Source: a virus. Taken from it: a stretch of DNA of 30,221 nt. Position 1 is the stretch's first letter. Each line of letters begins with the position of its first letter. The stretch spans positions 1 through 30,221 of the IMG/VR virus record IMGVR_UViG_3300044675_000918; one strand, written 5' to 3'. This document shows positions 4,150 through 27,025 of the stretch, in pieces. A program made the position numbers and the translations under genes. The notes under the pieces were generated by a model. The model was not told the DNA's origin and made no database searches. It saw nothing but the letters and a program-made list of their open reading frames with translations.

Positions 4150-4150
4150 A

Positions 4151-4807
4151 TTACCAATCAGCGTTAGTTGCTGAGGTGGCAGATGGGCCATCAAAGCCCA
4201 AATAGAACGCTTCTTGTTCTGCATAAGGAATCTTCTTGAGTGCTGACTCAAGAGGATAAGGCTCTATGGCCTTCCAATCAAATGGTTCCTTATCTGGTGC
4301 AGATGGAATAAGTGTGTAATTGGTTTCAGTTCCCTGACCATTACGCTTTAACTTCCATAGTACGTTTGAGATGCTTCCTGTTTCAAGAGCATACTCACGA
4401 ATTGTGTTGAATGATGACTGCTTGCTGATACCCATTGACCAAATTGCAACATATGGTGCTTCGATACCATCGTCAACTAGGACATTGCAATAGAAACGAA
4501 GACGGCCACGCCATCCAGCCTTTGGATCCTTACGGTGCATTTCTTCTGCCCAGTCACGACCTTCTGATTCCATTGTATCTACAGCCTTACGCTTGTAGTC
4601 CTTTGGGTTTACGTGTTCCTTAACAACTAGTGCTAGTCCACGATTTTCATTATAGTTTGCTGAGTCTTCATCAAGTTCTTCGATAAATCGAATCTTAACT
4701 GATTGTCCATCAGCGAGTTTTAGCCACTTTAACTTTGGCCCGTCGTTTTCATACTTTGGCTTGTCGAGCAGGGCATTAATGTTCTTGAGTCCCTTTACTA
4801 CGCTCAT
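4151..4807 (-). CDS. Probable phage single-stranded DNA-binding protein
   Basis: This 218-aa protein begins MSVVKGLKNINALLDKPKYE. It has the look of gp32/gp2.5-style phage SSBs: a short basic N-terminus, a beta-rich body (SVKIRFIEEL, GWRGRLRFYCNVLVDDG, APYVAIWSMGISKQS) and the segment VLWKLKRNGQGTETNYTLIP, a pattern common in phage ssDNA-binding proteins. The C-terminus ends in NADW with one acidic residue and an aromatic, only loosely like the acidic SSB tail. It would coat ssDNA at the fork and contact the primase, polymerase and RecA encoded around it. The start ATG 4807 has an excellent AAAGGAG 6 nt upstream. The stop is 1 nt before the polymerase start. The identity rests on fold-like features and position, not on an invariant motif. 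Confidence 0.6.
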   Translation of the reverse strand: MSVVKGLKNINALLDKPKYENDGPKLKWLKLADGQSVKIRFIEELDEDSANYNENRGLALVVKEHVNPKDYKRKAVDTMESEGRDWAEEMHRKDPKAGWRGRLRFYCNVLVDDGIEAPYVAIWSMGISKQSSFNTIREYALETGSISNVLWKLKRNGQGTETNYTLIPSAPDKEPFDWKAIEPYPLESALKKIPYAEQEAFYLGFDGPSATSATNADW

Positions 4808-4830
4808 ATATTTCTCCTTTGTTTGTTATA

Positions 4831-5775
4831 TTAGTTTAGCATAAGAGATATAGATTTGTCAAACTGGAACTCTAAATTCTTAAGTTCTTCATCTGGCATA
4901 TCTCCAATATCCTTATACTGATTGTTTAGTTTAATAACAGAAACACGAGTAGAAAGTTTTTCAACTATCCTATCTTTCATGTTTCCTCCTGCCTCATCAT
5001 TATCAGCAATAACAATAATGTTATTGAAATACTTCTGAAGCAATTCTATTTGTGTACTTGATACGTTTGCACCAAGTGTTGCTACTGCTGGGAGTCCTAC
5101 CTGGTCAAGTCTGATAGCATCAAACGAAGACTCTACTACATACACTCTATCAGATTTCTTAACTCTATGCAGGTTAAACAGTGTTTTACTTTTTGGAAGT
5201 CCTGGAGTATTCTTAAAATCTTTTCCTTCAATAGACCTACCAACAAATCCTAAAGGGATCCCATCTGGACTATGAACTGGAACGGTTACCATGTCTTGCT
5301 TTTCTGAATAACCCAATGAGAATTTTATGCAAGAAGGCTTTTCAATTTTTCTGTATGTAAAATAATTTCTTGCTCTTTCTGAACCGACTAACCCATTGTG
5401 TAATCTTTTAATAATAAGTTCATCAAATGTTTTATAAACTTCTTCTTTTACAAGGACTTTGTCAATCTCTGTAGTAATATTAGTTAACTTCTCTTTACTC
5501 TTTATAAACCTTGCAGATTCAAAATATGTTCTACCAGAAGTATGCATAACTAGTTCTATTAGGTCTGCAGATTTTTGGCAAGAAAAACAAAAGAACATTC
5601 CGCTTCCTTTTTGTACTTCTCCTGCTGGGGTTCTGTGATTATTGTGAAATGGACAAAAGATCATGAAGTCTGCATCAAGTTCAGACTCTACGGTAATACC
5701 CGATCCTGTAAGTACTCGCTTGACTTGGTCTGCTGAATAAAGATGGGATTGGCTCCGTCTATTCCTGCTATCCAT
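4831..5775 (-). CDS. dnaG: DNA primase, DnaG type (CHC2 zinc finger plus TOPRIM)
   Basis: This 314-aa primase makes RNA primers at the phage fork. A CHC2-type zinc site is formed by Cys41, His44, Cys63 and Cys66 (CPFHNN ... FFCFSC). The central segment carries the usual basic catalytic-core elements, including FVGRSIEGKDFKNTPGLPKS. The TOPRIM domain shows VVESSFDAI (Glu215) and ADNDEAG (Asp258, Asp260), the metal-binding acidic residues. It is shorter than bacterial DnaG (about 600 aa) and lacks a C-terminal DnaB-binding domain, as in many phage primases. The helicase is a separate gene upstream. Start ATG 5775 has AAAGGA about 8 nt upstream. The family-like N-terminal segment YSADQVKRVL begins at residue 13, so a start much further downstream is unlikely. 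The gene overlaps the upstream gene by 88 nt, which is long for this genome. Confidence 0.92.
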   Translation of the reverse strand: MDSRNRRSQSHLYSADQVKRVLTGSGITVESELDADFMIFCPFHNNHRTPAGEVQKGSGMFFCFSCQKSADLIELVMHTSGRTYFESARFIKSKEKLTNITTEIDKVLVKEEVYKTFDELIIKRLHNGLVGSERARNYFTYRKIEKPSCIKFSLGYSEKQDMVTVPVHSPDGIPLGFVGRSIEGKDFKNTPGLPKSKTLFNLHRVKKSDRVYVVESSFDAIRLDQVGLPAVATLGANVSSTQIELLQKYFNNIIVIADNDEAGGNMKDRIVEKLSTRVSVIKLNNQYKDIGDMPDEELKNLEFQFDKSISLMLN

Positions 5776-6044
5776 TCGCTTTTCCTTTTCCCTGCGTAAA
5801 CTGCATGTATCGATAGTTCAAATTCAAAATAGTTCTTTATATCATTATACCTTATTGTGAAGTCTGGGTCAAGATCAATTCTTGGCACATACCCACTTAA
5901 TTTCATTTCTGATATCAATAATCTTATATACTCTTGTTTGAGTCTTCCGATCATTGAATCGTCATAGATTACTCCGTCAAGGCAAAAACGCTTAATCGAC
6001 TTATGATGATAAGACTTATGAGTGGTAGCATTCTTTTCTGACAT
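5688..6044 (-). CDS. Conserved-looking unknown protein between helicase and primase
   Basis: This 118-aa protein has no function I can name. It has a basic N-terminus (KSYHHKSIKRFCLDG) followed by a compact alpha/beta body: YDDSMIGRLKQEYIRLLISE, then DFTIRYNDIKNYFEFELSI. No catalytic motif, zinc site or membrane segment is visible. It follows the DnaB stop by 12 nt and runs 88 nt into the primase gene. Its position inside the replisome operon suggests an accessory replication role, perhaps contacting helicase or primase, but that is inference from context only. There is no Shine-Dalgarno sequence before ATG 6044. Instead a TATAAT hexamer lies 5 nt upstream, so translation may be coupled to the helicase or may use a leaderless transcript. 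The part that overlaps the primase may be a non-conserved tail. Confidence 0.75.
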   Translation of the reverse strand: MSEKNATTHKSYHHKSIKRFCLDGVIYDDSMIGRLKQEYIRLLISEMKLSGYVPRIDLDPDFTIRYNDIKNYFEFELSIHAVYAGKRKSEWIAGIDGANPIFIQQTKSSEYLQDRVLP

Positions 6045-6049
6045 ACCAT

Positions 6050-6055
6050 ATTATA
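6050..6055 (-). promoter_or_regulatory. Possible -10 element for a leaderless start
   Basis: TATAAT on the minus strand lies just past the helicase stop. Five bases (ATGGT) separate it from ATG 6044. No ribosome binding site is present, so a transcript could begin at or next to the start codon. No clear -35 and no TG extension were seen, which makes this the weakest of the promoter calls. Confidence 0.3.
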
Positions 6056-6056
6056 A

Positions 6057-7277
6057 CTACTTATCTTCAAAGTCTTTATATCTATAATATCCCTTGTCAA
6101 AGTCACACTGGACTAGGAAATCTCCCATAAATCCATTACGGTTTTTACGGAATGCACATTCAATGATATCACTGTTTGTTCCACGGCCCAATGCAAGCAC
6201 CCAATCAGCATCATAAGCAATCTGTCTAGACCAGGATGTTTGACCAAGTGTTGGAACACTGTTTAGGTCGTTGGCATCGTCAGGTGTTGCAGATGAAATT
6301 GCAATAATTGGAACTTCTTCACCAATAGCCATTAGTTTTAATTCTCTTGAGAGGTTCTTCATTCGTACCGTTTCATTGTCTGACTTCTGGTTAGGAGCCA
6401 TCAACTGAAGGTAGTCAACGATCACAAAATCTGGCTTGTACTGATCAATCTTTCCACGAAGAACAGAAGGGTTGATTTCTCCGCCACTATCATTTGATAT
6501 GATGTGGAATTCTGGCTTTCCTGCAAGATTCTTTGCATGCCATTCCTTTAGCATGTCAATTTCAATCTCACCATTGCTAATCTTCCTGTGAGACCATCTA
6601 CCTTCACCCATAATAGTAAACACACGATTACGAACTTCAGTCTCAGACATTTCAAGAGAGATTACCATTGGGGACTTTCCTTGCTTCCATGCTTGAACAG
6701 CAAAGTAAAGTGCAAGCCACGACTTTCCAATTCCTGGATAAGCAAGAAACACTCCAAGTTGTCCTGGCATAATTCCAGAAGGAAGATAGTTGTCAAACCC
6801 TGGAAGACCTGTTTTGATTCCAGAAAGTCCTAGCGCTTGTTGTTTCTTAACATTTTCAAAATATGCAATAGCAGACTCAAGATCCGTTACATCAATATCA
6901 CGAATAGCAGAAGTATTCTTTTTTAATTCTGAGGTCTTTGTTATTAGTTCGTTAAGGGCACCGTTTCCATTATTGTTTTGGATCTCACTTGCAGCAGATC
7001 TAATTATATCTTTAAGGCTGTCGGTAAGGTACTCTCCCTGAAGTTCTTCAAGATGATGCTTGGTTGCTCCGATACCTGACACTGGCTCAAAGTCTCTAAA
7101 CTTTTCAGTAACTAATTCTGTTGGAGGAAGAACAGAGTTATTTTCAAAATACAACCTAATAAAATTCCAGATGTCTCCGTGAGTTCTTAAAAGATTATCA
7201 ACATTAGCCTGAAGAAGAACATGGATTTGCTTATCGCTTAAAACAGCCGTAAGTAGTTTTGCTTCTGCATTATTCAC
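6057..7277 (-). CDS. dnaB: Replicative DNA helicase, DnaB family
   Basis: This 406-aa RecA-fold helicase would unwind DNA at the phage replication fork as a hexamer. The N-terminal helical domain (about 1-110) is followed by a linker and the ATPase core starting at SGIKTGLPGFDNYLPSG. Walker A is AYPGIGKS (179-186, Lys185), the ISLEMS motif carries Glu209, and Walker B is DFVIVDYLQLM with Asp288. Later come SSATPDD and the arginine-bearing LALGRG and FRKNRNG segments typical of DnaB motif 4. The start is GTG at 7277: AAAGGAG lies 7 nt upstream, and no in-frame ATG fits as well. It overlaps the preceding gene by 8 nt. The length (406 versus about 470 in E. coli DnaB) reflects a somewhat shorter N-terminal domain. 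Confidence 0.95.
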   Translation of the reverse strand: MNNAEAKLLTAVLSDKQIHVLLQANVDNLLRTHGDIWNFIRLYFENNSVLPPTELVTEKFRDFEPVSGIGATKHHLEELQGEYLTDSLKDIIRSAASEIQNNNGNGALNELITKTSELKKNTSAIRDIDVTDLESAIAYFENVKKQQALGLSGIKTGLPGFDNYLPSGIMPGQLGVFLAYPGIGKSWLALYFAVQAWKQGKSPMVISLEMSETEVRNRVFTIMGEGRWSHRKISNGEIEIDMLKEWHAKNLAGKPEFHIISNDSGGEINPSVLRGKIDQYKPDFVIVDYLQLMAPNQKSDNETVRMKNLSRELKLMAIGEEVPIIAISSATPDDANDLNSVPTLGQTSWSRQIAYDADWVLALGRGTNSDIIECAFRKNRNGFMGDFLVQCDFDKGYYRYKDFEDK

Positions 7278-8343: not shown

Positions 8344-8480
8344 TGTCCCTCCAAAGTGTGGCTAGGTGGATGAAAAAATACTCTCACTCCGCAAGTCATG
8401 CAATATACTTCCAGGTGATTAATTTCCGTATATTGCCTATCTATAAACATTCTACCTTTGCATTTTTTGCACGACATCAT
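8289..8480 (-). CDS. Zinc-ribbon mini-protein
   Basis: This 63-aa protein contains two CxxC knuckles, SCKKCKG near the N-terminus and YCMTCGV about 23 residues later. This is the classic zinc-ribbon spacing found in small nucleic-acid or protein-binding modules. A basic helix follows (LLKRELLRAK). The start overlaps the preceding stop as TAATG, with a second in-frame ATG 3 nt later (TAATGATG), so either Met is possible. It runs 55 nt into the HTH gene. No function can be assigned. A regulatory or transcription-associated role is plausible given the HTH neighbour. Confidence 0.75.
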   Translation of the reverse strand: MMSCKKCKGRMFIDRQYTEINHLEVYCMTCGVRVFFHPPSHTLEGQWLLKRELLRAKNTMSYL

Positions 8481-8923
8481 TAGTTGGGTATTCCAACTAC
8501 GATTAGGTTAATTCCAATGCTTGTGTCTCCACCAGTATTAAATTTAACTGTTCCTTCTACTTTAGAAGTTGAAACACTATTAATTGTTACCGTAACATCT
8601 TTTCCAGCATCAGTGCTTCCAATATTAATTGGGGTTGCTGTAACTACTGGGGCAAACTTAAAGTCTGTTCCAAAAGCATAAGAAAATGGTTTAGATGATC
8701 CTGCAGTTTGTGTTGTACTTGTTGTTACCTGAACATATCCACCTATTACACGGGCTTCTGAGGCTTTTACGCTTTGCTTTCCAGATGTTGGTGTATCCAC
8801 GGTGACATATTTATATACTCCTGGAGATATTTGTTCAGACAAATCATTAACAGCCTTAACAATCTGATAGATATATGTAACATCTAGCGGTTGTCCTCTT
8901 TCGGGTACAGGTAAAATAGCCAT
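8480..8923 (-). CDS. Putative tail-associated structural protein
   Basis: This 147-aa protein begins MAILPVPERGQPLDVTYIYQ. A short helical N-terminal segment (DVTYIYQIVKAVNDLSEQIS) may form a trimeric stalk. The rest is beta-rich and low in charge (FKFAPVVTATPINIGSTDAG, then TVKFNTGGDTSIGINLIVVG), like the H-type-lectin-like or jelly-roll tips of small phage fibres. It is the last gene of the tail block, so a receptor-contact or decoration role is likely but inferred. No ribosome binding site is seen before ATG 8923. A TGGTATAAT element ends 6 nt before the ATG, which suggests a leaderless mRNA. That would let this gene and the regulators behind it be transcribed separately. Confidence 0.7.
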   Translation of the reverse strand: MAILPVPERGQPLDVTYIYQIVKAVNDLSEQISPGVYKYVTVDTPTSGKQSVKASEARVIGGYVQVTTSTTQTAGSSKPFSYAFGTDFKFAPVVTATPINIGSTDAGKDVTVTINSVSTSKVEGTVKFNTGGDTSIGINLIVVGIPN

Positions 8924-8929
8924 AATACA

Positions 8930-8938
8930 ATTATACCA
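8930..8938 (-). promoter_or_regulatory. Extended -10 promoter element, leaderless arrangement
   Basis: TGGTATAAT on the minus strand is a perfect TGn-TATAAT extended -10. Six bases (TGTATT) separate it from ATG 8923, so transcription would start at or next to the start codon. The TAATG-type coupling used elsewhere is absent here. The -10 overlaps the TAA stop of the preceding gene. No good -35 is visible, which is normal for extended -10 promoters. Confidence 0.55.
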
Positions 8939-15698: not shown

Positions 15699-16333
15699 TA
15701 TACCTCTTCCAAAGTAACTGAGACATTCCAGTAGTCAAAATTAGTTCCTCTTTTTTCTACAGAATAGGTAAAACTAGAAATAAACATCTCAACAATTTGG
15801 TTGTATTGAGAAAGGTGGTCATAAGGATCTTCTGTTCCTTTAAAAATATCTTTTCTGTCGTATGCAAGGAATACCCAAAAAGAACCTTTATGTGAGTCAT
15901 ACCATTCAAGCATATCTGCTCCACCAGCACCAGAGTCAGTTGTGTATGACTTTGATAAAGATTTTCCAGTGGTTGTATTAAAATTAGGATTGTGGTCATG
16001 TGATCGTGAAGGAATCATGCTCCAACTAGTGCTAAGTTTCATTTTATCTGCAGTATGATATGATCTCATACGGCCATTGATCATTCTCTCCCGTTTTTCA
16101 ATACGCTCATCTGAAAAATCTAATGGAGATCTATTATCGTCTGTAAGCATTAAAAACTGATCTACAGTGTTTGGATTTGCATCTGTCAGATCTGCACCAA
16201 CTTCTAATCCGTATGGGATGTACAAACCATTTATCAGGGTTCCAGAGTTTTCAGACCAAAGCATGCCACTAGGTCTATTATACTTTTTGCGACTCTGCAT
16301 ATAGGTAAATCTTGGGTCTGGACTATCTGGCAT
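15698..16333 (-). CDS. Distal tail (Dit-like) protein
   Basis: This 211-aa protein lies directly after the tape measure gene, where siphoviruses keep the distal tail protein that joins the tube to the hub. The sequence has a long N-terminal arm (MPDSPDPRFTYMQSRKKYNR), a beta-rich body, then FWVFLAYDRKDIFKG and a terminal strand pair FISSFTYSVEKRG / YWNVSVTLEEV, as in other Dit-type or minor tail proteins. ATG 16333 overlaps the tape measure stop by 11 nt. AGGGGG lies about 10 nt upstream, within the end of the tape measure gene. The assignment is mainly positional. A minor tail protein of another fold is possible. Confidence 0.6.
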   Translation of the reverse strand: MPDSPDPRFTYMQSRKKYNRPSGMLWSENSGTLINGLYIPYGLEVGADLTDANPNTVDQFLMLTDDNRSPLDFSDERIEKRERMINGRMRSYHTADKMKLSTSWSMIPSRSHDHNPNFNTTTGKSLSKSYTTDSGAGGADMLEWYDSHKGSFWVFLAYDRKDIFKGTEDPYDHLSQYNQIVEMFISSFTYSVEKRGTNFDYWNVSVTLEEV

Positions 16334-19300
16334 TTATTCCAATCCCCCTAATTCTTCTATCTTCTACTTGCTTGATTGTTGACATTACTGCCTGTGCAAT
16401 TTCATTTGGATTAGCATCTGTTCTTGCATTAACTGTTAATGTATATGTATTATTATACACTGCTGCGCCAGTTGCATCACCATTATTAATCTTTTTGAGA
16501 TTATCTACCCCGTAAGAATCCACAGCATACTTGCTCATAATAAACTCTCCTGGGGTTAACATTGCTGGAACAATGTCTGTACCTCTAGCAAATCCTCCAG
16601 CAGCAAAATATTTTGGAACCATACCACCAGAAGACATAAGTCCGATTGCCTTAAGTTTGCTTAATACTCCTTGTGGGGTGGTCCTTGATGGCGGGACTAC
16701 TGCTGGCTTAAAGGTTGGTGCATTATTTTGTCCATAGTTAAAGTTAGATGGCGTTGGTTTATTTACTGCAGGTGGTTTCGCTGCAGGTGGTTTCGCTGCA
16801 GGTGGTTTCGCTGCAGGTGGTTTCGCTGCAGGAACTTTTGCTACTGTTGCTGTTGCTACTGCTGGTTTTGTTTCTGAGGCTGGGGCACCAACAACTTCTG
16901 CAGGTGTTGGTGGAGTGTATGCAGATCCAAGGATTGGATCATTTCCAACTGTTTGTTCAGCAGCAAAGGCTGCCTTTAAATCAGGAACAGTTGCAAGAGC
17001 AAGTTTCATTGACTCTATGAATTTGTTGCTATTTATCATAGCAAGATCTACTTCATTCTTAATCTTTTCCCAAGCATCTCTTGTATTTCCAAGAACAGTA
17101 AGGCCTGCAATATCTTTGTCTAGTTGTATTTGTCTTAAACGAACAAACTCTTGTGCTGGTTCAATTCTGTCTTCTTCAATTTGAAACACTTCATCTTGAA
17201 GAGTTTTAATTTCTTTTTCAAGTTCTTTTCTAGTTTTTGTTTTCCAGAGAGACTTGTCGGTACTGCCCATTTTGTCAACTCCAGTTACTCCATCTAATTC
17301 ATATTGTCTGGACTGCTCTATAGCATCCTTTTGCTTTGTAACCGCATCGGCTGCCTGTTGTGCTCGCATGTCTTGCGCTGCTCGTGCTGCTGCAGCGATG
17401 TCTCCAGATGTTAATGCTTCTGCAAGTGTTAGTTGACCCCTTTGCTGATTAGAAATAGCAGCATTGGCTTTTTCTACTTCATCAAGAGCCTTAATTCTTT
17501 CGTCATATTTGTCATTAATCTTTTGCTCTTGGTCTTCAATAGCCTTTAGTGCTGCTTCTTTGTCATCAACTTTATACTGAATTAATGCAATGTCTTCTTG
17601 TGCTTTTTTCATTACATCTTCTTGTGATTTTGTATCTAATTTAAATTTAATATTAAGGGCTGTTTCTTGAACATCAAAAGCCTCCATTGCATTGCCAAAC
17701 CCGTCATTAAACATATCTTGCATAAATTCAATAGTACCTTTTAACTGTTTAAGTCTTGTATCAAAATCAGTTATCAACTTGTTTAACTCAGCCTGTGCAG
17801 TCGCAATAACTTCTTTATCAGCACCTTTTTTAATTAAACTATTAACTTTTGATTGCTGAGTGCCAATTTCAGTTTCCATCAGGCTTAAGTTTTCATCAGA
17901 ATTAATTGCTCTTGCAGTTGAGGCACTATATTTCTTTCTAATTCTTGCCTCTTTAGTTCTATCTTTTTTGAATTGATCTATGTCTGTTCCTACTCCCTTA
18001 ACCGCTGCTGATCTAAGTTGTGCCTTAGTTAAAACATTATAATTCTTTGCTAAAGTAGCAACTGACTTTGAATTTTTTTCCATAGCAATTGCTTGAGCAA
18101 GTCCAGCGTTTTCAACCATTGCGTAAGCATCTGCAACTGGAACTCCTATAGAAGACAACTTGGCAAAGGCTATTGCTTGATCTTCAATCACGTTAGTTTC
18201 TGCTTCTGTCTTTGAATTAAAGTCTCCCATTGCTATAGAGTTTAACGCTTCTTGAATGTTTTTGGCATCCTTCTTTAAACCAATAATGTTATCCTTATTG
18301 TCAAACTCAAATAAAGACCTCTTCTTGCTTTCATACTCTTTTGGATCCATTCCAACTATAAGAGAAATGAGGTCTTCACTTCCACCTATCTTTCTTATAT
18401 CATTCTCTATACCGCTGAAAGCATCAAGGGTCTTCTTGCCTCCAAACAGGCCATCTAAAGCCTTACGAGAGGCACTCCAGCCCTCTGTGACCTTAATCTG
18501 GTTCTTACGTACATCCCTTAGTTTTTTGACTAGATCATCTAGGGGTGAGGACTGAACCTTACTTCCCCCGCCAGTTGGAGTTGTTCCTGTTGGAGCCTTT
18601 GTGTCTACAGCAACACCTTCAGTTACAGCCTTAAATCCTTGATCTTCTTTGTAGTGAGCAACTTGTGTTGCAATAGGAAGTGATGCATAATCTGCTCCAC
18701 CATATGCTTTTCCTTGAATCATTGTAGTTGGAGATTTTTGCCAATCAATAAAGTCTTGAGTTGCTACTATCTCTGGATCTGGAATATTAATTATAGACGC
18801 AATAGTCTGTGTGTAAGTCTTTTGCTGATCTTCTGTTAGAGTATTAAAGTATGCTTCATCAAAAGCAGCAGTGCCCTCAATGTTTGGAATAATGTTATAG
18901 ACAATTTCTGCAGTTAGGTCTTTGTTTCCTTCAATGCTGTCTAACATTGTGTTTAACTTTTCATATTGCTCTTTATTCTTTGGGTCTACATAGTAACTAA
19001 CCAGAACATCAGATGGAATAACTGCGTTAAGGTTGTTTAACTTAATCATATTTTTTGTAAAATCAAGAGCATCTGAATCTTTTTCAAATGCTTCAACCTT
19101 TGTAACAAACTTGGTCTGTACTGTCTTATTAACTACGCCTTTAGAATCAAGAATGTTTTGGGCTGCAACACCAATTGACTCAGAAGTTGCACCGCTAAAC
19201 TTAGTAATAATATTCATCATCTTTGGAGCAATATCTTTGTTGTCTGCTGCTAGACCTAAAAGACTTCTAAATACTGCTGGAGGTATATCTCCACTTGCCA

Positions 19301-22300
19301 TCTTTGCCTGAATTAAAAATTCTTGTCCGCTGTCAATAAGGCCATCTTTTCTTAGGTTTGCTGCTTGCTGATCAACAACATCTATATATGCTAACTGATT
19401 AGGATCGTCTTTATATTTTGCAGTAACAGCCTTTTTCATACCGCCCATCATTGCTTCTTGCATAGCGCCAGCGCCATTGTATTGTGTTACAACGTCTGCC
19501 TGTAGTTGTCCTTGTGCTGCTGTTAATTTATCTCTTTCACCAATATACTTAGTTTGCATTTCTTCTGCTTCATTAATTTTGCCTTGAAGTTTTAGTTGAT
19601 CAATTTTCTTTTGGTAGAACATATCAAATGAATCTAGCATTTGTTTGTTTTGTTCCATGGCGATCTTGGAATCTACTGCATAGGCTGCTCCAAGTGCTCC
19701 TGCTTGTTTTGCAAATCTTTTTGTTGCAAAATATCCTCCAATTGCTCCTGCTGCTGCGCCGATGCCACCACCAATAATGGCACCAACAGCGGTACCCAGA
19801 ATTGGAACTACGCTTCCTATGGCTGCCCCAAGTGCTGCTCCACCTAAAGCAGCGGCTCCAATTCCTGCTTTTTGAACAGTACTTTGTCCAGCAAGTTTTG
19901 TCATTGTTCCTGCGTTGTTTACATTTTTAGCACTTGCTTGCATTCTCTTACTATTTTCTGCAACCATATCAGTTCTTACCTTTAAAGGATTTTTTTCTAA
20001 GTCTTCTCCATTAGGTCCAAGCACTTTTTCCATTTGAGCAATTACTCTAATTCCCATAGACACATCTCCTGCTTGTCTTGCAGCATTCATTGCTAAACTT
20101 TTTGCTTGATTTATATCCATTGCGCCAGACATAACTGAAGTAGTTAACTGGCTTGACAAATCTCCAACTGCTTGCCCACCTTTTCCAGCAGCATTTTGTT
20201 CTGCAAGTCTTTTTGTTATTCCCTTGCCTTCTTCTGTTTGAACAAATGCTTCTCCATAAGTTGTTTTTCCAGTTGCTGAAGGGGTCATATTGAAAGAGTT
20301 TTTCCTCTTAAGATCCATCTGTTCTGACGCTGTTACTTTACCGCTGAACTTTGCTATAGCATTAACAGCAGAAGTAGATCCTCTAAATTTTTCATTTTCT
20401 TCTAAAACTTTATTTGCTGCTGCATCAAAGGCCATTCTTAAAGCAACAAATGATCCAACGGTTGCTGCCAAACCAACTGCAACTGCGCCCATAGGACTCT
20501 TTAACATTGGAAGAACCATAGAAAGACCCATCAAAGGCATCATAACTTTTTGTGAAATTTCTCCAACCTTGCCTGGTGCCATAGAACCAACCATCGCTGC
20601 GCCTGCTGCAACTCCAAGTCCACCAGCCATACCCATTCCACCCTTGCCTGCTGCTCTTGCTTGCTGTCTTTTACTTATCATTGATCCAGCCTTTAGTTTG
20701 GCTTTATCAAGTCTTGTTGGAGTAAAGTTTCCACTTGGCAATAGAGGGCCTTGCATTGGTCCTGCAGGTTGGCTCTGGAAAATCTTTTTTTGATATCCTA
20801 CAGAGTTGGCTAATTTAGTTCTTTTTTCTTCTTGACGACGCAAAGACTTTGCATCTGCATCCATTGGTCCAGTGCCGTATAGTTTAGTTCTTGATGCTGT
20901 TATCTTTGCTTGTGTTCTTGCTTCTTCTCTTTGACGCTTTTCCATTTGACGGCGTACAGATTTAGCGTCAGCATCTATTGATCCCCCGCCATAAAGGGCA
21001 GTTCTAGATGCTGCTGCTGCAGATTGAGATAGCGTTGTTCCAATTGTACTTCCAACTGTCTTTGCTTCTGCTATAGAGGACTTTGCTCCAGCAACTACTG
21101 CTCCCGCTGGGTCTACAAGTCTTTTTACTCCTCTTGGATAATTACGAGCAAGATCTTGTTCTGAAATATTAATATCTGGAGCATCTGCTTTTCCAACAAT
21201 TCTTCCTTTAGGACCTTGACGAACTGCCTTGACTACGCTCTTTGGAGCAAGTCTACTATCATCTGTTTTACCAGAAGTTGATTTTAAGTTTACAGTATTT
21301 GGTTCTGTAGGTATTGGCTTTATATTGCCATTTTTATCTTGAAGTACTTCATCTGGTTTTACCAAGATTGAACGGTGGAAGTGATAAACTTTTTTCCAAT
21401 CTGCTTCTAGGCCAGCCTGAAGTCTCTTATACATGTCCTCATAAACCTTTTTGGCTGGGTCTCCATCAGCAAGTTTAAAACCGTCTATAGTCTTTCTTAG
21501 TTTTGGAAGTGTTTTGTTGATCTCATCCTTTATTGTTTTTTCATATTGGTCTGCAGACTTAATTCCTTGAGGAATATCTGCTGTCGCATTTCCAAACCAG
21601 AATGGTGATGCATTTGCGTTTGCTCCTGGAACACCCTTCAAGTTGTGCATTGCAATTTCTTGCATAGATGGAAGCCCTGCGGAATAAGATCTTGTGCCAG
21701 ATGCCTTATCAAATACACCAGCAGCGCCAACATCTGCTATAACATTTCCTCCCAAGTTTCCTTTTTTAAGATCTTTGTCTGCACGAAGGCTTGACGCTAC
21801 TAGTTGTCTAAAATAATCTCTTTCGGTAAATGTCTTTGGCATTGTATTTGGATCAAACCTTGGATCAAACTTAGATTCTAAAACAATAACTTTTCTCTTT
21901 TTATTAACATCTGGCTCATCAATATCTGTAGGGTCAATCATTGTTGTGATTTTTTGTTTTGGCGCTACCAGTCCGTGAACATTTCTTGCAATCTCTGTTG
22001 CTCTTTTTTCTGCTATAGCATCTAACTCGCTTAGCATTGGTTTTACAAATACCTTTGAACCATCTGGCTTTGTGTATACTCCACCAATAGTAGACATAAA
22101 ATTGCTTCTTCCAGAACTTTGTGTTTCCTGCTTACCAAAGTTTGTTGGTTTCTTTGCCCCATAGGTAGTTTGAGATGCTTCAATTGCAACTGCTCTTAAT
22201 TTTTCTTTATGCTCCATTGCTTTTTCAAGATCAACTAATTCTGGAGCCTTTAAAGGAACTGATATTTTTGTTTTATCTTTTGATTTTGCGCCTTGAGAAA

Positions 22301-25205
22301 ACTTAGGAGTTGTTCCCGATCCAAGTCTATTCATGTTTACAGTTGTTGGCTCTTTAATTTCAAACCCATCATAGATGCCTGGATTAAGTGTTACAGTTCC
22401 AGAGGATGTTACTGTTTTCCCTTGGCTTTCTGAAAACCTAGTCTTAATTTCATATCCTGCAATATAAGGTTTTCCAGTTGCTGGATTTATTGTTGATGCT
22501 GCTTTGTCAAGTATTGCCTTACTTGTTTCTGGAGTTGTTCCTAGTCCTTGCCCCATATTAAATCTAACATCTGCTGCATATAGTTGTCTAGACTTTATAT
22601 ATCCTGGATCATTTGGGCTTATTCTTTTTGGAAGTTCCTTTTCATATAAATGTTTCAGTAGGTCATCATTAACCATTTTTGAAGGAGATTCTCTAACTAA
22701 CTTTAAAAGTTCTCTGTCTAGTGCTTCTGCTTGTACAGGAGACATTCCAGATGGATGCCATTTTGATGGACCATTTTTTAGCCATTCGTCTATAAATGCT
22801 TGTTTAGGAATTCCTTGTCCGTACATTTTTTTATTGATCTCAAGAGGGAAATCAAACATCAATCCATGCTTTACGGTTGTTACTGCTGGCAAACCTTGTG
22901 ACAAAAGAACCTGTTGCATTGTTATAAGTTTTAGTCTTTGATTCTCACTCATTTCTGGATGAGCCTTGAGTATGTCTGAAATTAATTTAGGTTCGCTTTT
23001 ACCTCCTACGTGAGTTTCACTCATTGCAACAGGTTGAGCGTTTGTTGTACCTCCATTAAATCCTTGTACCGTTCCACCTGCAACCATATGAGCAATGAAA
23101 GGTCTATTCGCTGGATCTTGTGCAGCCTCTGCTGGAATTACTGCTTCTCCAGGAGTAAGTACTGATGGAACAGTATCTTTATTTCCAGTTCCTGGAACTC
23201 TTGTTGTTCCAGTAGAATATTTAAGTTTAGGCATTCTTTTACCAGCAGGTGGGCCAGTAAATCCTGCCTGTGCTGCAATGGCTCTTCTATATGCATTTGC
23301 CAACATGTTAACTGCTGTGGTTTCAGATGTAAAGGTTTGCTTAAGTTTAGTGTGAACTTGATCAAGAGATGCTGCTACTGCTGAGGCTTCTAGTTGTTCT
23401 TTAGTTAAATAGTTTGTTTGCTCGCCTAAAACTTTACTAGCGTTTCCTGTTCTGTTGTACATAGACTTCATCCCTGCAAACATTTTAATTATGTTAGCAA
23501 CAGCGTTTGCAATCAGACCAAATGTCATAAGTAGAACTGGACCTATTCCTGCAACTGCAACAGTAAAGATTGTTAAGAATTTTTTACTACCGTCTCCTAG
23601 ACCATTAAATTTTTCAAGAATCTTTCCAACAAACTCAACAATAGGTGTTAGTGCTTTTAAGAACTGTTCTCCAACTGGAGCAATAGCCAACTTAAGATCT
23701 TCCATTGACTTTTTAAATTTATAAGTTGTTGTATTTTGAATCTTATCTAATTCTCGCTGTGACAAGATTGCAAGTTCTTCTGTGGTTGCTTGTGTTAGTT
23801 GAAGAACTCTGTTTGCTTGCGTACCCTGGGCTACTACGTTTTGAAATAATGTAGAAAGTCTTGAGAACTGAAACTTACCAAACAGTTGCTCAATAGCACG
23901 AGCACGGTTAAGGGGATCAAGAGTGTCTAGTGCCTGTGCAAATCCAACAACAGTTGCTTTGATGTCACCCTTATTGGACTCAACAATTCCTCGAATGTTT
24001 ACACCAAGGTCTCCAAGAAATGCACTGGCTTTTGCAGAAGGATTAATTAATGAAGCAAGACCAGACTTAAGTGCGTTAGCGCCTTCTGATGCATTGATTC
24101 CACCTTCTTTCATTGCTGTAAGGAAGAATGCTAAATCTTCTACATCTCCACCAAGTTGTTGAATAACTGGTCCAGCCTTTGGAATTGCTATGGTCAAGTC
24201 TTCAATTGATACAACGGTCTGGTTTTCAACTGCGTTAAGGAAGTCAATCTTTTTAGCAAGATCTTCTGTTGCTACTCCAAATGCATTAGTTACTGATATT
24301 GTTGTTTCTAATGCTTGTTCTTGTTCTACTCCACCAAGAACAGCAAGTCTTGTTGCTTGTGCAACTTGAGCCATAAGGGCTGCGCCCTGTTTACCCATTG
24401 CTGCTGCATCTGCAGCCATTTTCATTGTATCTTCTATTGCAACGCCGTACTTAGTATATTCTTTTGCAAGACTTTGAATCTGCTTAATCATTGCATCGGT
24501 TTCTTCTGTAGATGTAAACATTTCTCCGTATACACGCTTAAATCTAATTGCCTGCTCTTCAAGTTTCATGAATGTCTTAGAAGCAGTTACTCCAAGCATT
24601 GTCAGTGGAACTGTAAAACCAACCATCAACTGGCGACCTGCCCACTGAGTATTCTTACCAAAATTTAGAAGGTTGGTTGATCCTTGTTTTAATAATTGAT
24701 TGAGTAGTTGCTGTCTTTGTGCAGCAATGGCAGTTTGTGTGCCAAGATTTTTCATGTCAAGAGTTAGAGGTCTTACTGCAATTGACTGTAGGGCTCCGTT
24801 GGCCCCTCGACCCATCTTAATATATTGGGTCTGTAGATCCTTTACACGCTCTCGTGCAACTTTATTTAATGTGTCAAACTCAGATCTAAATAGTCTACCA
24901 AAAGTTTTTGTTGCAGCGCCAGTGTATCTAAAGTATTCTCTTGAGGTTAACTTATTTCTTTCTAAGGCATCAGTAAAAGACTCTGTACTCGATGTTACTG
25001 TTCGCATTGATGCTTGGAATTGTCCAGTAGCATTTATGCTGTTCATCAAGTTTTGTGCTTGATTTGCTGCCACTGCTGATGCTGCAGTGCCAGACTTTGC
25101 CATCTGTGTATGGAAGGCTGATATTTGACGTTGTAGAAGTTTTAGACTTGCTAAAGCATCGGACGTATCAATATTTACATGAATATTGGATTCTACATCA
25201 GCCAT
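16323..25205 (-). CDS. Tail tape measure protein, 2960 aa, with large accessory region
   Basis: It sets tail length and is threaded through the tube. Residues about 160-505 form a TP901-type tape measure core (TMLGVTASKTFMKLEEQAIR, TTISVTNAFGVATEDLAKKI, KAGPVIQQLGGDVEDLAFFL). Hydrophobic stretches lie at 545-575, 1525-1590 and 1779-1825, the last a glycine-rich zipper. Coiled-coil rich segments span about 2420-2720. Two TPGE motifs occur: VPSVLTPGEAVIPAEAA (679-695) and VPAMLTPGEFIM (2879-2890), the second in the usual C-terminal place. Between about 730 and 1480 lies a region unlike tape measures, including a kinase-like stretch (1036-1290). At roughly 1.5 angstroms per residue the whole chain would span about 440 nm. 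ATG 25205 has GAGGTG about 7 nt upstream. An alternative ATG at 25209 is out of frame. No muralytic domain was recognised. Confidence 0.95.
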   Translation of the reverse strand: MADVESNIHVNIDTSDALASLKLLQRQISAFHTQMAKSGTAASAVAANQAQNLMNSINATGQFQASMRTVTSSTESFTDALERNKLTSREYFRYTGAATKTFGRLFRSEFDTLNKVARERVKDLQTQYIKMGRGANGALQSIAVRPLTLDMKNLGTQTAIAAQRQQLLNQLLKQGSTNLLNFGKNTQWAGRQLMVGFTVPLTMLGVTASKTFMKLEEQAIRFKRVYGEMFTSTEETDAMIKQIQSLAKEYTKYGVAIEDTMKMAADAAAMGKQGAALMAQVAQATRLAVLGGVEQEQALETTISVTNAFGVATEDLAKKIDFLNAVENQTVVSIEDLTIAIPKAGPVIQQLGGDVEDLAFFLTAMKEGGINASEGANALKSGLASLINPSAKASAFLGDLGVNIRGIVESNKGDIKATVVGFAQALDTLDPLNRARAIEQLFGKFQFSRLSTLFQNVVAQGTQANRVLQLTQATTEELAILSQRELDKIQNTTTYKFKKSMEDLKLAIAPVGEQFLKALTPIVEFVGKILEKFNGLGDGSKKFLTIFTVAVAGIGPVLLMTFGLIANAVANIIKMFAGMKSMYNRTGNASKVLGEQTNYLTKEQLEASAVAASLDQVHTKLKQTFTSETTAVNMLANAYRRAIAAQAGFTGPPAGKRMPKLKYSTGTTRVPGTGNKDTVPSVLTPGEAVIPAEAAQDPANRPFIAHMVAGGTVQGFNGGTTNAQPVAMSETHVGGKSEPKLISDILKAHPEMSENQRLKLITMQQVLLSQGLPAVTTVKHGLMFDFPLEINKKMYGQGIPKQAFIDEWLKNGPSKWHPSGMSPVQAEALDRELLKLVRESPSKMVNDDLLKHLYEKELPKRISPNDPGYIKSRQLYAADVRFNMGQGLGTTPETSKAILDKAASTINPATGKPYIAGYEIKTRFSESQGKTVTSSGTVTLNPGIYDGFEIKEPTTVNMNRLGSGTTPKFSQGAKSKDKTKISVPLKAPELVDLEKAMEHKEKLRAVAIEASQTTYGAKKPTNFGKQETQSSGRSNFMSTIGGVYTKPDGSKVFVKPMLSELDAIAEKRATEIARNVHGLVAPKQKITTMIDPTDIDEPDVNKKRKVIVLESKFDPRFDPNTMPKTFTERDYFRQLVASSLRADKDLKKGNLGGNVIADVGAAGVFDKASGTRSYSAGLPSMQEIAMHNLKGVPGANANASPFWFGNATADIPQGIKSADQYEKTIKDEINKTLPKLRKTIDGFKLADGDPAKKVYEDMYKRLQAGLEADWKKVYHFHRSILVKPDEVLQDKNGNIKPIPTEPNTVNLKSTSGKTDDSRLAPKSVVKAVRQGPKGRIVGKADAPDINISEQDLARNYPRGVKRLVDPAGAVVAGAKSSIAEAKTVGSTIGTTLSQSAAAASRTALYGGGSIDADAKSVRRQMEKRQREEARTQAKITASRTKLYGTGPMDADAKSLRRQEEKRTKLANSVGYQKKIFQSQPAGPMQGPLLPSGNFTPTRLDKAKLKAGSMISKRQQARAAGKGGMGMAGGLGVAAGAAMVGSMAPGKVGEISQKVMMPLMGLSMVLPMLKSPMGAVAVGLAATVGSFVALRMAFDAAANKVLEENEKFRGSTSAVNAIAKFSGKVTASEQMDLKRKNSFNMTPSATGKTTYGEAFVQTEEGKGITKRLAEQNAAGKGGQAVGDLSSQLTTSVMSGAMDINQAKSLAMNAARQAGDVSMGIRVIAQMEKVLGPNGEDLEKNPLKVRTDMVAENSKRMQASAKNVNNAGTMTKLAGQSTVQKAGIGAAALGGAALGAAIGSVVPILGTAVGAIIGGGIGAAAGAIGGYFATKRFAKQAGALGAAYAVDSKIAMEQNKQMLDSFDMFYQKKIDQLKLQGKINEAEEMQTKYIGERDKLTAAQGQLQADVVTQYNGAGAMQEAMMGGMKKAVTAKYKDDPNQLAYIDVVDQQAANLRKDGLIDSGQEFLIQAKMASGDIPPAVFRSLLGLAADNKDIAPKMMNIITKFSGATSESIGVAAQNILDSKGVVNKTVQTKFVTKVEAFEKDSDALDFTKNMIKLNNLNAVIPSDVLVSYYVDPKNKEQYEKLNTMLDSIEGNKDLTAEIVYNIIPNIEGTAAFDEAYFNTLTEDQQKTYTQTIASIINIPDPEIVATQDFIDWQKSPTTMIQGKAYGGADYASLPIATQVAHYKEDQGFKAVTEGVAVDTKAPTGTTPTGGGSKVQSSPLDDLVKKLRDVRKNQIKVTEGWSASRKALDGLFGGKKTLDAFSGIENDIRKIGGSEDLISLIVGMDPKEYESKKRSLFEFDNKDNIIGLKKDAKNIQEALNSIAMGDFNSKTEAETNVIEDQAIAFAKLSSIGVPVADAYAMVENAGLAQAIAMEKNSKSVATLAKNYNVLTKAQLRSAAVKGVGTDIDQFKKDRTKEARIRKKYSASTARAINSDENLSLMETEIGTQQSKVNSLIKKGADKEVIATAQAELNKLITDFDTRLKQLKGTIEFMQDMFNDGFGNAMEAFDVQETALNIKFKLDTKSQEDVMKKAQEDIALIQYKVDDKEAALKAIEDQEQKINDKYDERIKALDEVEKANAAISNQQRGQLTLAEALTSGDIAAAARAAQDMRAQQAADAVTKQKDAIEQSRQYELDGVTGVDKMGSTDKSLWKTKTRKELEKEIKTLQDEVFQIEEDRIEPAQEFVRLRQIQLDKDIAGLTVLGNTRDAWEKIKNEVDLAMINSNKFIESMKLALATVPDLKAAFAAEQTVGNDPILGSAYTPPTPAEVVGAPASETKPAVATATVAKVPAAKPPAAKPPAAKPPAAKPPAVNKPTPSNFNYGQNNAPTFKPAVVPPSRTTPQGVLSKLKAIGLMSSGGMVPKYFAAGGFARGTDIVPAMLTPGEFIMSKYAVDSYGVDNLKKINNGDATGAAVYNNTYTLTVNARTDANPNEIAQAVMSTIKQVEDRRIRGIGINAR
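16768..16830 (-). repeat. 15-bp tandem repeat encoding PAAKP units
   Basis: Just over four perfect copies of a 15-bp unit (plus strand GCAGGTGGTTTCGCT) encode Pro-Ala-Ala-Lys-Pro repeats at about residues 2792-2812 of the tape measure protein. They sit in a longer Pro/Ala/Lys/Val-rich linker just before the C-terminal TPGE region. Perfect identity implies recent expansion by slippage or selection against drift. The repeat probably forms an extended flexible spacer. Confidence 0.9.
20820..21008 (-). repeat. Duplicated ~25-residue module in the tape measure protein
   Basis: Residues about 1400-1424 and 1438-1462 share the pattern SRTxLYGxGxxDADAKSxRR followed by QxEKR. The two copies are 38 residues apart and are separated by a charged helix. 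Both are basic and end in short helices. They mark the end of the accessory region, just before the tape measure resumes. Their role is unknown. Confidence 0.75.
21336..22100 (-). other. Kinase-like domain embedded in the tape measure protein (tentative)
   Basis: Residues about 1036-1290 show an order of motifs like the HipA / type II PI4K / protein-kinase superfamily. There is a glycine-containing hairpin STIGGVYTKPDGSKVFVKP with Lys1055, a helix LSELDAIAEKRATEIARNVH with Glu1066, and GLVAPKQKITTMI as the following strand. A hinge-like strand KRKVIVLESKF comes next, then a catalytic-loop-like RADKDLKKGN (Asp1145, Asn1150) and an acidic strand end at IADVG (Asp1158) or GVFD (Asp1166). The segment after that is helical. 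The Asn1150-to-Asp1158 spacing is tight for a kinase hairpin, so Asp1166 is the better metal-ligand candidate. This is pattern recognition by eye. A different fold remains possible. Confidence 0.4.
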
Positions 25206-25223: not shown

Positions 25224-25550
25224 TTAGTTATTTGCAAGGTTGCCAAGTAGTGATGCGTCAGAAAGTTTAATTCCTGATGCCTCTTCGACAATCTTGTATA
25301 CTGTTGGAAGGTCTAGGTTTTCTTCTAGGGCTTCCTTGTCTTCTGCCAATTCTGGCTTGTATTGTTTCATTGCGATTTGAACACAGTCCATAAGTAAGTC
25401 CATAGACTTTTCGTTATCATCTGCAACTTTTGCAATGTCTTCAAACTTCTTCATAAACGGACGAAGTAGTGAAATTTTAAGTGGTCTGACCTTGATCTTA
25501 GTACCATCAATTAGTGTTACGGTCTTCTCTTCTGTTGTGGCAGTTGCCAT
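25224..25550 (-). CDS. Tail assembly chaperone, short paralog (G-like)
   Basis: This 108-aa protein lies between the long chaperone and the tape measure gene, the classic place for tail assembly chaperones that hold the tape measure while the tube forms. The body (IKVRPLKISLLRPFMKKFED, DLLMDCVQIAMKQYKPELAE, ENLDLPTVYKIVEEASGIKL) aligns closely with residues 1-95 of the neighbouring long protein, so the two genes are paralogs. It ends soon after the shared part and has no T-like extension. AAGGAGG lies before ATG 25550 at good spacing. An extended -10 is 27 nt upstream of the start, so the gene may have its own promoter. Confidence 0.82.
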   Translation of the reverse strand: MATATTEEKTVTLIDGTKIKVRPLKISLLRPFMKKFEDIAKVADDNEKSMDLLMDCVQIAMKQYKPELAEDKEALEENLDLPTVYKIVEEASGIKLSDASLLGNLANN

Positions 25551-25576
25551 TTAGTCCTCCTTATAAGGTTTAGTCA

Positions 25577-25585
25577 ATTATACCA
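25577..25585 (-). promoter_or_regulatory. Extended -10 promoter element before the short chaperone
   Basis: TGGTATAAT on the minus strand lies between the stop of the long chaperone (25606) and the start of the short one (25550). The leader would be about 20 nt and contains AAGGAGG. The element is followed by TG, as at 8930-8938. No clear -35 was seen. It could provide extra transcript for the short chaperone and tape measure. Confidence 0.5.
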
Positions 25586-25605: not shown

Positions 25606-26286
25606 TTAATCGTAAACCTCATAGTCTAGCCCCATTCCAATTCCAAACCCCGCTCTTTCGGCGTTGGCGCCCTGCAATGCAAGAATATCTCTTCCATCTT
25701 GCGTTTTCCCTCCACTAAAGACTCTAGCCTTCATGTCTTCCCATTCATTTCCACTTCCAGAGTTCTTATCTAAATCTACCCCTTGCATCGCAGCAACAAA
25801 TTTTTTATCACTATAGTCTAATTCTCTTTTTATTTTTAATGTGGCTGTCAGTTCTTGCATTGACATTGATGATTCTAGTTGATCATAGTCTTTCCATATA
25901 CCGATTAAAAAAACCTCTGCTTCTAATTTTGCTAAATCTAATGTGTCCCATGTGGATCCGCTTTCAACTGCCTGATCCTTAACAGTATCTTCTGACTTTT
26001 GGTTAATTTTAATTCCCGCTGCTACATCAATTACTTCATATATGGTTGGCAAGTCAAGGTTATCTTCTAGATCTTCTATTGTTTTAATTGATGGGCAATA
26101 CTGTTGCATTGCTATTAAAGCGCATTTGGCCAAGACTGATATTGATTCATCATCTGTTTTTGCTTCTTTTATTGTTTCAAAAGTTTCTAGGAATTCTCTT
26201 AGATATTTTATTTTTAGTGGAGCAGCAACAACTACTCTATCGTCTACTAATGATATTTTTTTTGTGTCATATATTTTAGTTGCCAT
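25606..26286 (-). CDS. Tail assembly chaperone, long paralog (GT-like, in-frame)
   Basis: This 226-aa protein begins MATKIYDTKKISLVDDRVVV. Residues 1-95 (PLKIKYLREFLETFETIKEA, VLAKCALIAMQQYCPSI, EDNLDLPTIYEVIDVAAGIK) are paralogous to the whole short chaperone. Residues 96-226 form a T-like extension with a helical part and a Gly-rich end (AERAGFGIGMGLDYEVYD). In lambda-like phages the extended product comes from a programmed -1 frameshift. Here it is one continuous frame. A U UUU UUA heptamer lies at codons 125-127 (25912-25906). The open frame begins at 26316, but those codons fall in a terminator hairpin, so ATG 26286 is chosen. It has no ribosome binding site, and TATACT lies 6 nt upstream, suggesting a leaderless start. 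Confidence 0.82.
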   Translation of the reverse strand: MATKIYDTKKISLVDDRVVVAAPLKIKYLREFLETFETIKEAKTDDESISVLAKCALIAMQQYCPSIKTIEDLEDNLDLPTIYEVIDVAAGIKINQKSEDTVKDQAVESGSTWDTLDLAKLEAEVFLIGIWKDYDQLESSMSMQELTATLKIKRELDYSDKKFVAAMQGVDLDKNSGSGNEWEDMKARVFSGGKTQDGRDILALQGANAERAGFGIGMGLDYEVYD

Positions 26287-26292
26287 TATATA

Positions 26293-26301
26293 AGTATACC
26301 A
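26293..26301 (-). promoter_or_regulatory. Extended -10 promoter element with leaderless start
   Basis: TGGTATACT on the minus strand is a TGn-extended -10. Six bases (TATATA) separate it from ATG 26286, and no Shine-Dalgarno sequence exists. It lies right after a hairpin terminator, so transcription is probably stopped and restarted here, separating capsid/tube expression from chaperones and tape measure. Confidence 0.5.
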
Positions 26302-26333
26302 AACAGAAAGGCCCAACCCCGAAGGATTGAGCC
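26300..26333 (-). terminator. Rho-independent terminator after the major tail protein gene
   Basis: On the minus strand GGCTCAATCC and GGGTTGGGCC (26333-26310) pair over 10 bp with two G-U wobbles around a TTCG tetraloop closed by C-G. The U-rich tract TTTCTGTTTG follows. It lies 18 nt past the stop of the major tail protein gene, a usual site for limiting read-through from a very highly expressed gene. Confidence 0.85.
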
Positions 26334-26350: not shown

Positions 26351-27025
26351 TTATGCTAGGGAACGGTCTACGATCTTACCATATGACGCATTGTCATTTG
26401 GAAGAAGACGGAATGAAACCTCAAACATTGTTGCTTCATCGCGCTTTGCAGATACTGTTACATTCTCAATTGAGAGTGCACGGTATGCTACATAGATTCT
26501 TTCCTTTGGATCTAGAGAAGAACCAGAACCTGGTCCTACTGCTACAATACCACGCTCTAGTGGAACGTCACCAATGTCGCCTGCAGACATCTTGAGAGTC
26601 TGTAGACCTGATGCCTCTGGAGATAAGTCTCCACCAACTCCACCTTTTCCTGCAATCGCAACTAGAAGATTTTCTAGTGTTGATTCAGCAAAAGATGTAT
26701 TTAGATTAACTGTCATACCTTGCTTGAATAAACGAGCAACGTCGAGAAGTTGATCTACTGCTACGTCACCAAAATCTGGTTGGAATGCGAGTTCCAAACC
26801 ATTTGATGTGTAACCGATGTTTGTATAGCCAGCGCCTGTTACGGAGTCTGACAAAGTATCCTTGTAGGATGTTGAGGATGCTGTAAGTGCTGGAAGGTCT
26901 GTTGCTGCTTGAGCATCAGTGATCTTGCCATCTACTTCATTGTATCCGATTGGACCTGCATTATGTGTAAAAAGTGCTGCTGCACCCACGATAATGTTAC
27001 TACTTGAACCACGGCTGTATGCCAT
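26351..27025 (-). CDS. Major tail (tube) protein
   Basis: This 224-aa protein begins MAYSRGSSSNIIVGAAALFT. It likely forms the tail tube rings. The sequence has typical tube-protein features: small residues, many strands, and GYTSNGLELAFQPDFGDVAV followed by a helix (DQLLDVARLFKQGMTVNLNT). It ends with a strand pair (ENVTVSAKRDEATMFEVSFR). It is followed by a terminator and the chaperone and tape measure genes, the standard order. The open frame extends to 27070, but ATG 27025 has AAAGAGGTGA at good spacing and starts the tube-like sequence. A promoter-like TTACCA-17-TATAAT precedes it, fitting a strongly expressed structural gene. Confidence 0.82.
   Translation of the reverse strand: MAYSRGSSSNIIVGAAALFTHNAGPIGYNEVDGKITDAQAATDLPALTASSTSYKDTLSDSVTGAGYTNIGYTSNGLELAFQPDFGDVAVDQLLDVARLFKQGMTVNLNTSFAESTLENLLVAIAGKGGVGGDLSPEASGLQTLKMSAGDIGDVPLERGIVAVGPGSGSSLDPKERIYVAYRALSIENVTVSAKRDEATMFEVSFRLLPNDNASYGKIVDRSLA

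Follow-up and report, generated by a model that had tools for sequence, protein, structure and literature searches.

This locus raises the question of how the region between an abundant tail tube protein and the tape measure protein is divided into messages, and how the short and long forms of the tail assembly chaperone encoded there (G and GT, respectively) are kept in proportion. In phage lambda the G:GT ratio is about 30:1 and crucial for tail assembly, according to PMC5009743. The window, by which we mean the whole stretch of 30,221 nucleotides that was analysed (IMG/VR record IMGVR_UViG_3300044675_000918), shows the following order of transcription: the tube gene (P0003), a hairpin, a promoter, the long chaperone gene (P0001), a second promoter with the Shine-Dalgarno (SD) sequence AAGGAGGA, the short chaperone gene (P0002) and the tape measure gene. 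An initial annotation had read a terminator and a leaderless promoter, placed back to back, as stopping the tube message and restarting a low-level message for chaperone and tape measure. The tube-chaperone junction itself was borne out by our analysis, whereas the paralogy of the chaperones and the loss of a frameshift had been omitted from that reading. Taken together, we find it probable that a transcriptional junction and a two-gene, two-promoter layout set the G:GT ratio in this group of phages.

Terminator and leaderless-type promoter at the tube-chaperone junction

The upstream neighbour of the junction (P0003, 224 aa, positions 26351 to 27025 on the minus strand) is the major tail tube protein gene, as indicated by a match to phrog_2175 (E 3e-29) and by relatives annotated as major tail protein; the Pfam family Phage_TTP_17 gave a weak hit under the family cut-off (E 0.0014). 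All elements of the junction, i.e. the hairpin, the -10 sequence and the ATG, are located on the minus strand, a point that the initial annotation did not mention. The hairpin core GGCTCAATCC-TTCG-GGGTTGGGCC occupies positions 26333-26310. A hairpin of 10 bp with a C(UUCG)G loop and a U tract had been claimed and is present, with pairing that reaches 14 pairs (26337-26306) and a U tract UUUCUGUUU that is interrupted, overlaps the foot of the hairpin and ends at 26301. Folding of the junction strand gave -24.6 kcal/mol compared to a shuffle mean of -10.63 kcal/mol (z -6.05); nothing remarkable was seen when the plus strand of this region was folded, the element sitting on the minus strand. The hairpin is the longest among nine terminator-like sites found by a scan of the window, where 11.0 were expected from shuffles, and because the promoter/terminator consensus scan shows no excess over shuffles it is conservation that bears the weight of the terminator call. 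An Rfam search gave no match, and a tRNA search found none.

Relatives were collected from five IMG/VR scans (best 80 matches each), ten phage records and two window loci. Among the matches listed there were 406 loci, which were classed by their G and T profiles: 382 were GT-G or G-T, with 309 carrying a GT gene followed by a G gene and 73 a G gene with T in the -1 frame, a ratio that reflects the best 80 matches per scan and from which the natural frequency is not estimable. The other 24 were partial, odd or unclassed. Removal of identical loci from the 379 with usable starts left 229, of which 161 are two-gene and 68 frameshift-type, and the tube gene or spacer was readable in 152 and 65 of these, respectively. 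Identity to the tube protein of the window is as low as 48% among the relatives. In two pairs of loci (L079/L166 and L139/L232) the GT reading frames look broken or deleted.

A hairpin with a T tail was found in the tube-chaperone spacer of every two-gene relative (152/152) and of every frameshift-type relative (65/65) with a readable spacer. With a strict cut-off of -15 kcal/mol or lower, 38 of 40 sampled two-gene loci passed against 0 of 80 shuffles, as did 40 of 40 sampled frameshift loci, with 0 of 160 shuffles passing over both sets; at a looser cut-off of -7 kcal/mol, 27 of the 160 shuffles pass too. Across the two-gene set there are 70 different 5' arms, showing that the hairpin has been retained despite changing letters. 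The locus has what is expected of an intrinsic terminator, a G+C-rich hairpin and an (imperfect) U tract closing a transcription unit, and the proposed stop of the tube message is in agreement with this conservation.

The extended -10 promoter TGGTATACT lies at 26301-26293 on the minus strand, followed by 6 nt and the ATG at 26286-26284, and just as claimed there is no ribosome binding site: the SD duplex energy at this start is -1.1 kcal/mol, compared to -11.1 kcal/mol at the next gene. The combination of a TANNNT motif about 12 bp before the start, counted from its first T, and the lack of an SD is that of TA-led leaderless genes. Two copies of TGNTATAMT-N6-ATG are present in the 30-kb window against 0.04 expected, and no shuffle contained two; when 5-8 nt are allowed before the start, TGNTATAMT precedes 2 of the 22 gene starts but none of the 1052 other ATGs (Fisher p about 4e-4, calculated by hand).

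It is clear from the relatives that this promoter has been maintained. A -10 sequence stands 6-9 nt from the GT start in 158 of the 161 two-gene relatives, and in a profile of 31 diverged relatives the T, A, A and T of the -10 hexamer and the G of the TG are invariant. Of the 158, 9 + 16 have the -10 at a distance of 8 or 9 nt, which makes a leader of a few nt possible in those. Three GT genes are without the leaderless -10 (L267, L050 and L123); in L267 the -10 region is cut by the contig end and in L123 a GTG start was misread. In L050, which shares its contig with L093, one base is deleted after the leaderless ATG and the ATG is out of the GT frame, reflecting either a sequencing error or a real change. 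An SD below -4 kcal/mol was found at 6 of the 161 GT starts, all of them weak. Hence, as far as sequence goes, the leaderless restart is favoured: there is no SD, and the extended -10 predicts a 5' end at the start codon or 0-3 nt from it.

The same -10-like string could in principle be incidental, with the long chaperone being translated from tube messages that read through a weak terminator, from an upstream in-frame start or by re-initiation. The interrupted U tract fits this, as does a frame that in the window is open upstream as far as TTG 26316, but we consider it very unlikely, since the -10 and its spacing are kept in 158 of 161 relatives while the hairpin arms vary, 34 of 152 relatives have an in-frame stop no more than 20 nt before the start, and in the alignment the long-chaperone protein begins where its paralogue and the single-copy genes have their SD-led MAT start. 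A new message beginning at or close to the ATG of the long chaperone gene is the reading that we prefer.

Two chaperone genes with different initiation signals

The long chaperone P0001 (226 aa) is encoded at 25606-26286 and the short chaperone P0002 (108 aa) at 25224-25550, both on the minus strand. P0002 is a paralogue of residues 1-98 of P0001 (42% identity, E 2e-23; E 3.5e-39 in a profile comparison). The N-terminal part of P0001 belongs to phrog_10504 and the C-terminal part to a different PHROG, phrog_10474, both without a function name in PHROGs. Because these domains correspond, in Streptomyces phages, to a G gene and a T frame that overlaps it, P0001 is, on its domain content, a permanent in-frame fusion of G and T, and P0002 a copy of G alone, i.e. 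a short gene next to a longer gene that fuses the short and the downstream parts. The tape measure gene (2960 aa, 16323-25205, minus strand) lies 18 nt downstream of the short chaperone gene, and the gene at the same place in Streptomyces phages is annotated as tape measure. In the 151 relatives for which this spacer was measured its length is 15-30 nt, and so the short copy has no T frame behind it. Further downstream on the same strand (874-7277) we noted a set of replication genes: a DnaB-like helicase, a primase, a single-strand binding protein and a DNA polymerase III alpha.

Both chaperone genes sit between the tube and tape measure genes. P0001 matches 128 phage records (127 Streptomyces and one Rhodococcus), one place in each, and at most of the places listed the annotation is tail assembly chaperone. 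Structure models of the chaperones had pLDDT values of 70-73, and comparison of the short form with a viral structure library gave a chaperone match with E 1.6e-6 and TM 0.74. The HK97 chaperone 2ob9 was a weak match (Z 4.0, with 84 aligned residues and rmsd 4.6, and Z 4.2) amid unrelated rows, a search of solved structures by sequence with the G profile gave a chance-level match only, and Pfam held no usable family for the chaperones. PF12322 (T4_baseplate) was tried as the family and rejected as too weak, with 1 of 38 members at E 0.0036. Position, homology to annotated chaperones and the viral-library match support the predicted identity as tail assembly chaperones.

The short chaperone gene has signals of its own, a second extended -10 promoter TGGTATAAT at 25577-25585, 26 nt 5' of its start, and the SD AAGGAGGA at 25555-25562 (-11.1 kcal/mol), both on the minus strand. 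All 161 relatives have an extended -10 ahead of the short gene, in most of them at 25-27 nt from its start, compared to 0 of 161 shuffles, and the SD of the short copy is below -4 kcal/mol in all 161; leaderless starts at short copies amount to 0/161. A terminator between GT and G was found in 0 of 152 two-gene relatives, and transcripts from the GT promoter could read through into the short copy. The idea of one restart for the chaperone and tape measure message finds no support in this form: the leaderless promoter directly serves only the long G+T chaperone, and the short chaperone and tape measure have the second promoter TGGTATAAT and SD sites, with no terminator between.

The single-copy relatives, which comprise isolated Streptomyces phages and IMG/VR contigs, have one SD-led G gene with an SD below -4 kcal/mol and a -10-like motif upstream in 68 of 68 cases, and a leaderless -10 in 0 of 68. 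Judged from these sequences, the short gene retains the leader and SD kind of the single-copy gene, and the predicted leaderless start is new in the fused copy. The same relatives bear on a more ordinary explanation, that the junction only insulates the tube gene from tail-assembly transcription and that the leaderless start is a style of this group with no role in the G:GT ratio. Their SD-led gene is preceded by a terminator as well (65/65), showing that the predicted terminator is independent of the leaderless start, and this together with the upstream -10-like motif is what simple insulation would look like. However, a leaderless start restricted to the fused copy, with none in the short or single-copy genes, does not agree with a mere style of the group, and we regard this explanation as possible but doubtful compared to a layout that sets the ratio.

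Loss of the frameshift site and history of the duplication

In the frameshift-type relatives T is found in the -1 frame at 73 of 73 loci, and the frame overlap starts about at a slippery heptamer. Of the 68 frameshift genes, 66 carry CCCAAAY or CCCGGA and the remaining two AAATTTA. The sequence TGGGA at the G end was at one point considered as the slippery site and dropped, as the overlap start pointed to CCCAAAY. The G/T frameshift is annotated as joined in TunaTartare and in Rhodococcus phage NiceHouse; eight of ten phage records (L237, L238, L240-L245) have it annotated without a join, and several of these eight label T as hypothetical protein. The single-copy relatives would thus make both forms from one G gene by -1 frameshifting.

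The two-gene loci are different in this respect. The short copy of the window has neither CCCAAAY nor CCCGGA and no T frame behind it, and where the single-copy relatives have the slippery GAC CCA AAY it has GAC GCA TCA (25251-25259, minus strand). Neither CCCAAAY nor CCCGGA occurs in any of the 161 short copies, and among the 161 GT copies only two (L391 and L392) have one of them. In these two GT genes a CCCAAAT is still in the slippery register, apparently left over from the former frameshift site. Because the single-copy loci all have an SD and a slippery site (68/68) and none has a leaderless start, and none of the short copies has the site, it seems that duplication and two promoters took over from programmed frameshifting, probably once.

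Trees were built from 32 two-gene and 28 frameshift representatives. In the G-domain tree the frameshift G proteins form one clade (96) and the GT N-domains another (100), with the short G proteins between them, and in the T-domain tree the two-gene set is one clade (99). The tube tree has one frameshift group inside the two-gene set and needs two changes, but a single two-gene clade is not rejected by the tube data (p-AU 0.226). There was probably one duplication, followed by rapid change in the fused copy. The near-perfect association of the leaderless start with the fusion is therefore to be taken as a single origin that was maintained for a long time, and not as many independent cases.

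The stem branch of the GT N-domains is long (0.9 changes per column), and such fast change in one copy is what one would expect if the two chaperones had diverged in role, GT being for example a baseplate or initiator factor, and the pair did not replace the G/GT isoforms. We find this improbable: the fused C-terminal part is the T domain of the frameshift product (phrog_10474), one T profile finding both and one tree holding both, the order of tube, chaperones and tape measure is preserved, and both copies resemble tail assembly chaperones in predicted structure. Replacement of the G/GT isoforms by the gene pair is the account that we pursue below.

Expression of the two forms and comparison with known systems

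A codon index built on tube genes gave 0.727 for the tube, 0.639 for G, 0.565 for the tape measure and 0.483 for GT genes, with GT below G in 151 of 152 loci and below the tape measure in 134 of 141. The codon usage supports a GT that would be scarce and a G that would be abundant, and this identical GT/G split is a further point against an insulator unrelated to the ratio. The low-level message proposed to follow the restart fits the codon usage in the case of the long chaperone. A leaderless start does not always mean low expression: according to PMC7148126, leaderless reporters in M. smegmatis had lower mRNA and protein, their translation resembled that of one leadered construct, and the M. 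tuberculosis data gave no slope difference for leaderless genes.

Leaderless-type starts seem common in these phages, a frequency that by itself would suit a group style with no bearing on G:GT. TGNTATAMT-N6-ATG was found at 85 sites against 4 ending in CAT, with up to 14 per record, in 13 phage records (L001, L032, L037, L051, L237, L240, L250, L256, L289, L349, L351, L382 and L384). The window has a second leaderless-type gene (147 aa, 8923-8480, minus strand) with CTGGTATAATTGTATT directly 5' of its ATG and no SD; a family search with it gave no match, and in the 8480-8938 region the motif is present with the exact 6-nt spacing in 43 of 43 distinct relatives. A 118-aa ORF at 5688-6044 on the minus strand, which lacks an SD and has a TATAAT 5 nt upstream of its ATG, is perhaps a third. 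The conservation of the second gene and the 85 versus 4 sites suggest that the host is able to handle leaderless mRNAs. Relatives in bacterial genome contigs were not found in two scans for a host or prophage, and the host group is guessed from the Streptomyces phage kin alone.

Our model of the locus is as follows. At this late-operon junction the intrinsic terminator would end the abundant tube message, and the extended -10 fused to its 3' side would initiate transcription anew, with the A of the long-chaperone ATG as the first nucleotide. Leaderless initiation and poor codons would then yield little of the fixed in-frame fusion GT, while the G-only paralogue, with its own extended -10, strong SD and good codons, would be made in quantity, the tape measure coming next. 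In this way two genes and two promoters would set the G:GT ratio, a job done by -1 frameshifting in the relatives. As for the wider claim, that a terminator and leaderless promoter on GT and a promoter and SD on G replaced frameshifting as ratio setter throughout the clade, we lean only slightly towards it.

The anatomy of the locus, its conservation, the paralogy of the chaperones and the disappearance of the slippery site can all be read from the sequences, and with a clade devoid of the frameshift beside close relatives that have it, before and after can be compared and the replacement followed through its steps: duplication, in-frame fusion, slippery-site loss and a split in promoters and initiation. 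This opens a direct comparison on what makes phages retain the frameshift and on whether the ratio is all that counts. If the model is true, leaderless versus SD-led initiation does the job of a recoding signal, and leaderless phage mRNA is given a concrete job. For annotators there is a caution that a frameshift should not be forced on two-gene loci.

The G/GT frameshift is widely conserved in long-tailed phages, with T4 as the exception, as stated in PMC5009743. The locus resembles the gpG/gpGT system of lambda in its place between tube and tape measure and in having a short G and a long GT, and the direct relatives of the window shift by -1 in the lambda manner, at a slippery heptamer of the canonical kind; in contrast, the window has two genes and two promoters, and its short gene has neither a slippery site nor a T frame following it. 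Also comparable are the Stanwilliamsviridae Streptomyces phages (Circinus, Gilson, Samisti12, TunaTartare and others), which have homologous tube, G and T genes and, as here, a terminator and then a promoter before G, but differ in having a single SD-led G gene with a frameshift.

As for the initiation signals, actinobacterial leaderless genes are described in PMC3160421 as having TANNNT about 12 bp before the start. In the window the distance from the first T of TATACT to the A of the ATG is likewise 12 nt, with no SD, but here the setting is a phage structural operon, an abutting terminator and one paralogue of two. A literature search for leaderless or duplicated tail chaperones, with most subscription journals outside its reach, did not find this arrangement. 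Some T4-like phages are reported to have a short chaperone gene and a long, fused one instead of frameshifting (PMC10885494), and as described there they share with our locus the replacement of the frameshift by two separate genes, of which the longer is a fusion. Compared with that description, the present pair belongs to another lineage with frameshifting relatives at hand, consists of adjacent tandem genes and has its long copy under a leaderless promoter behind a terminator. A pair of short and long fused genes was thus already known from T4-like phages, and the present case is apparently independent; what is new is the terminator and the putative division of labour between leaderless and SD-led initiation, with frameshifting relatives available for comparison.
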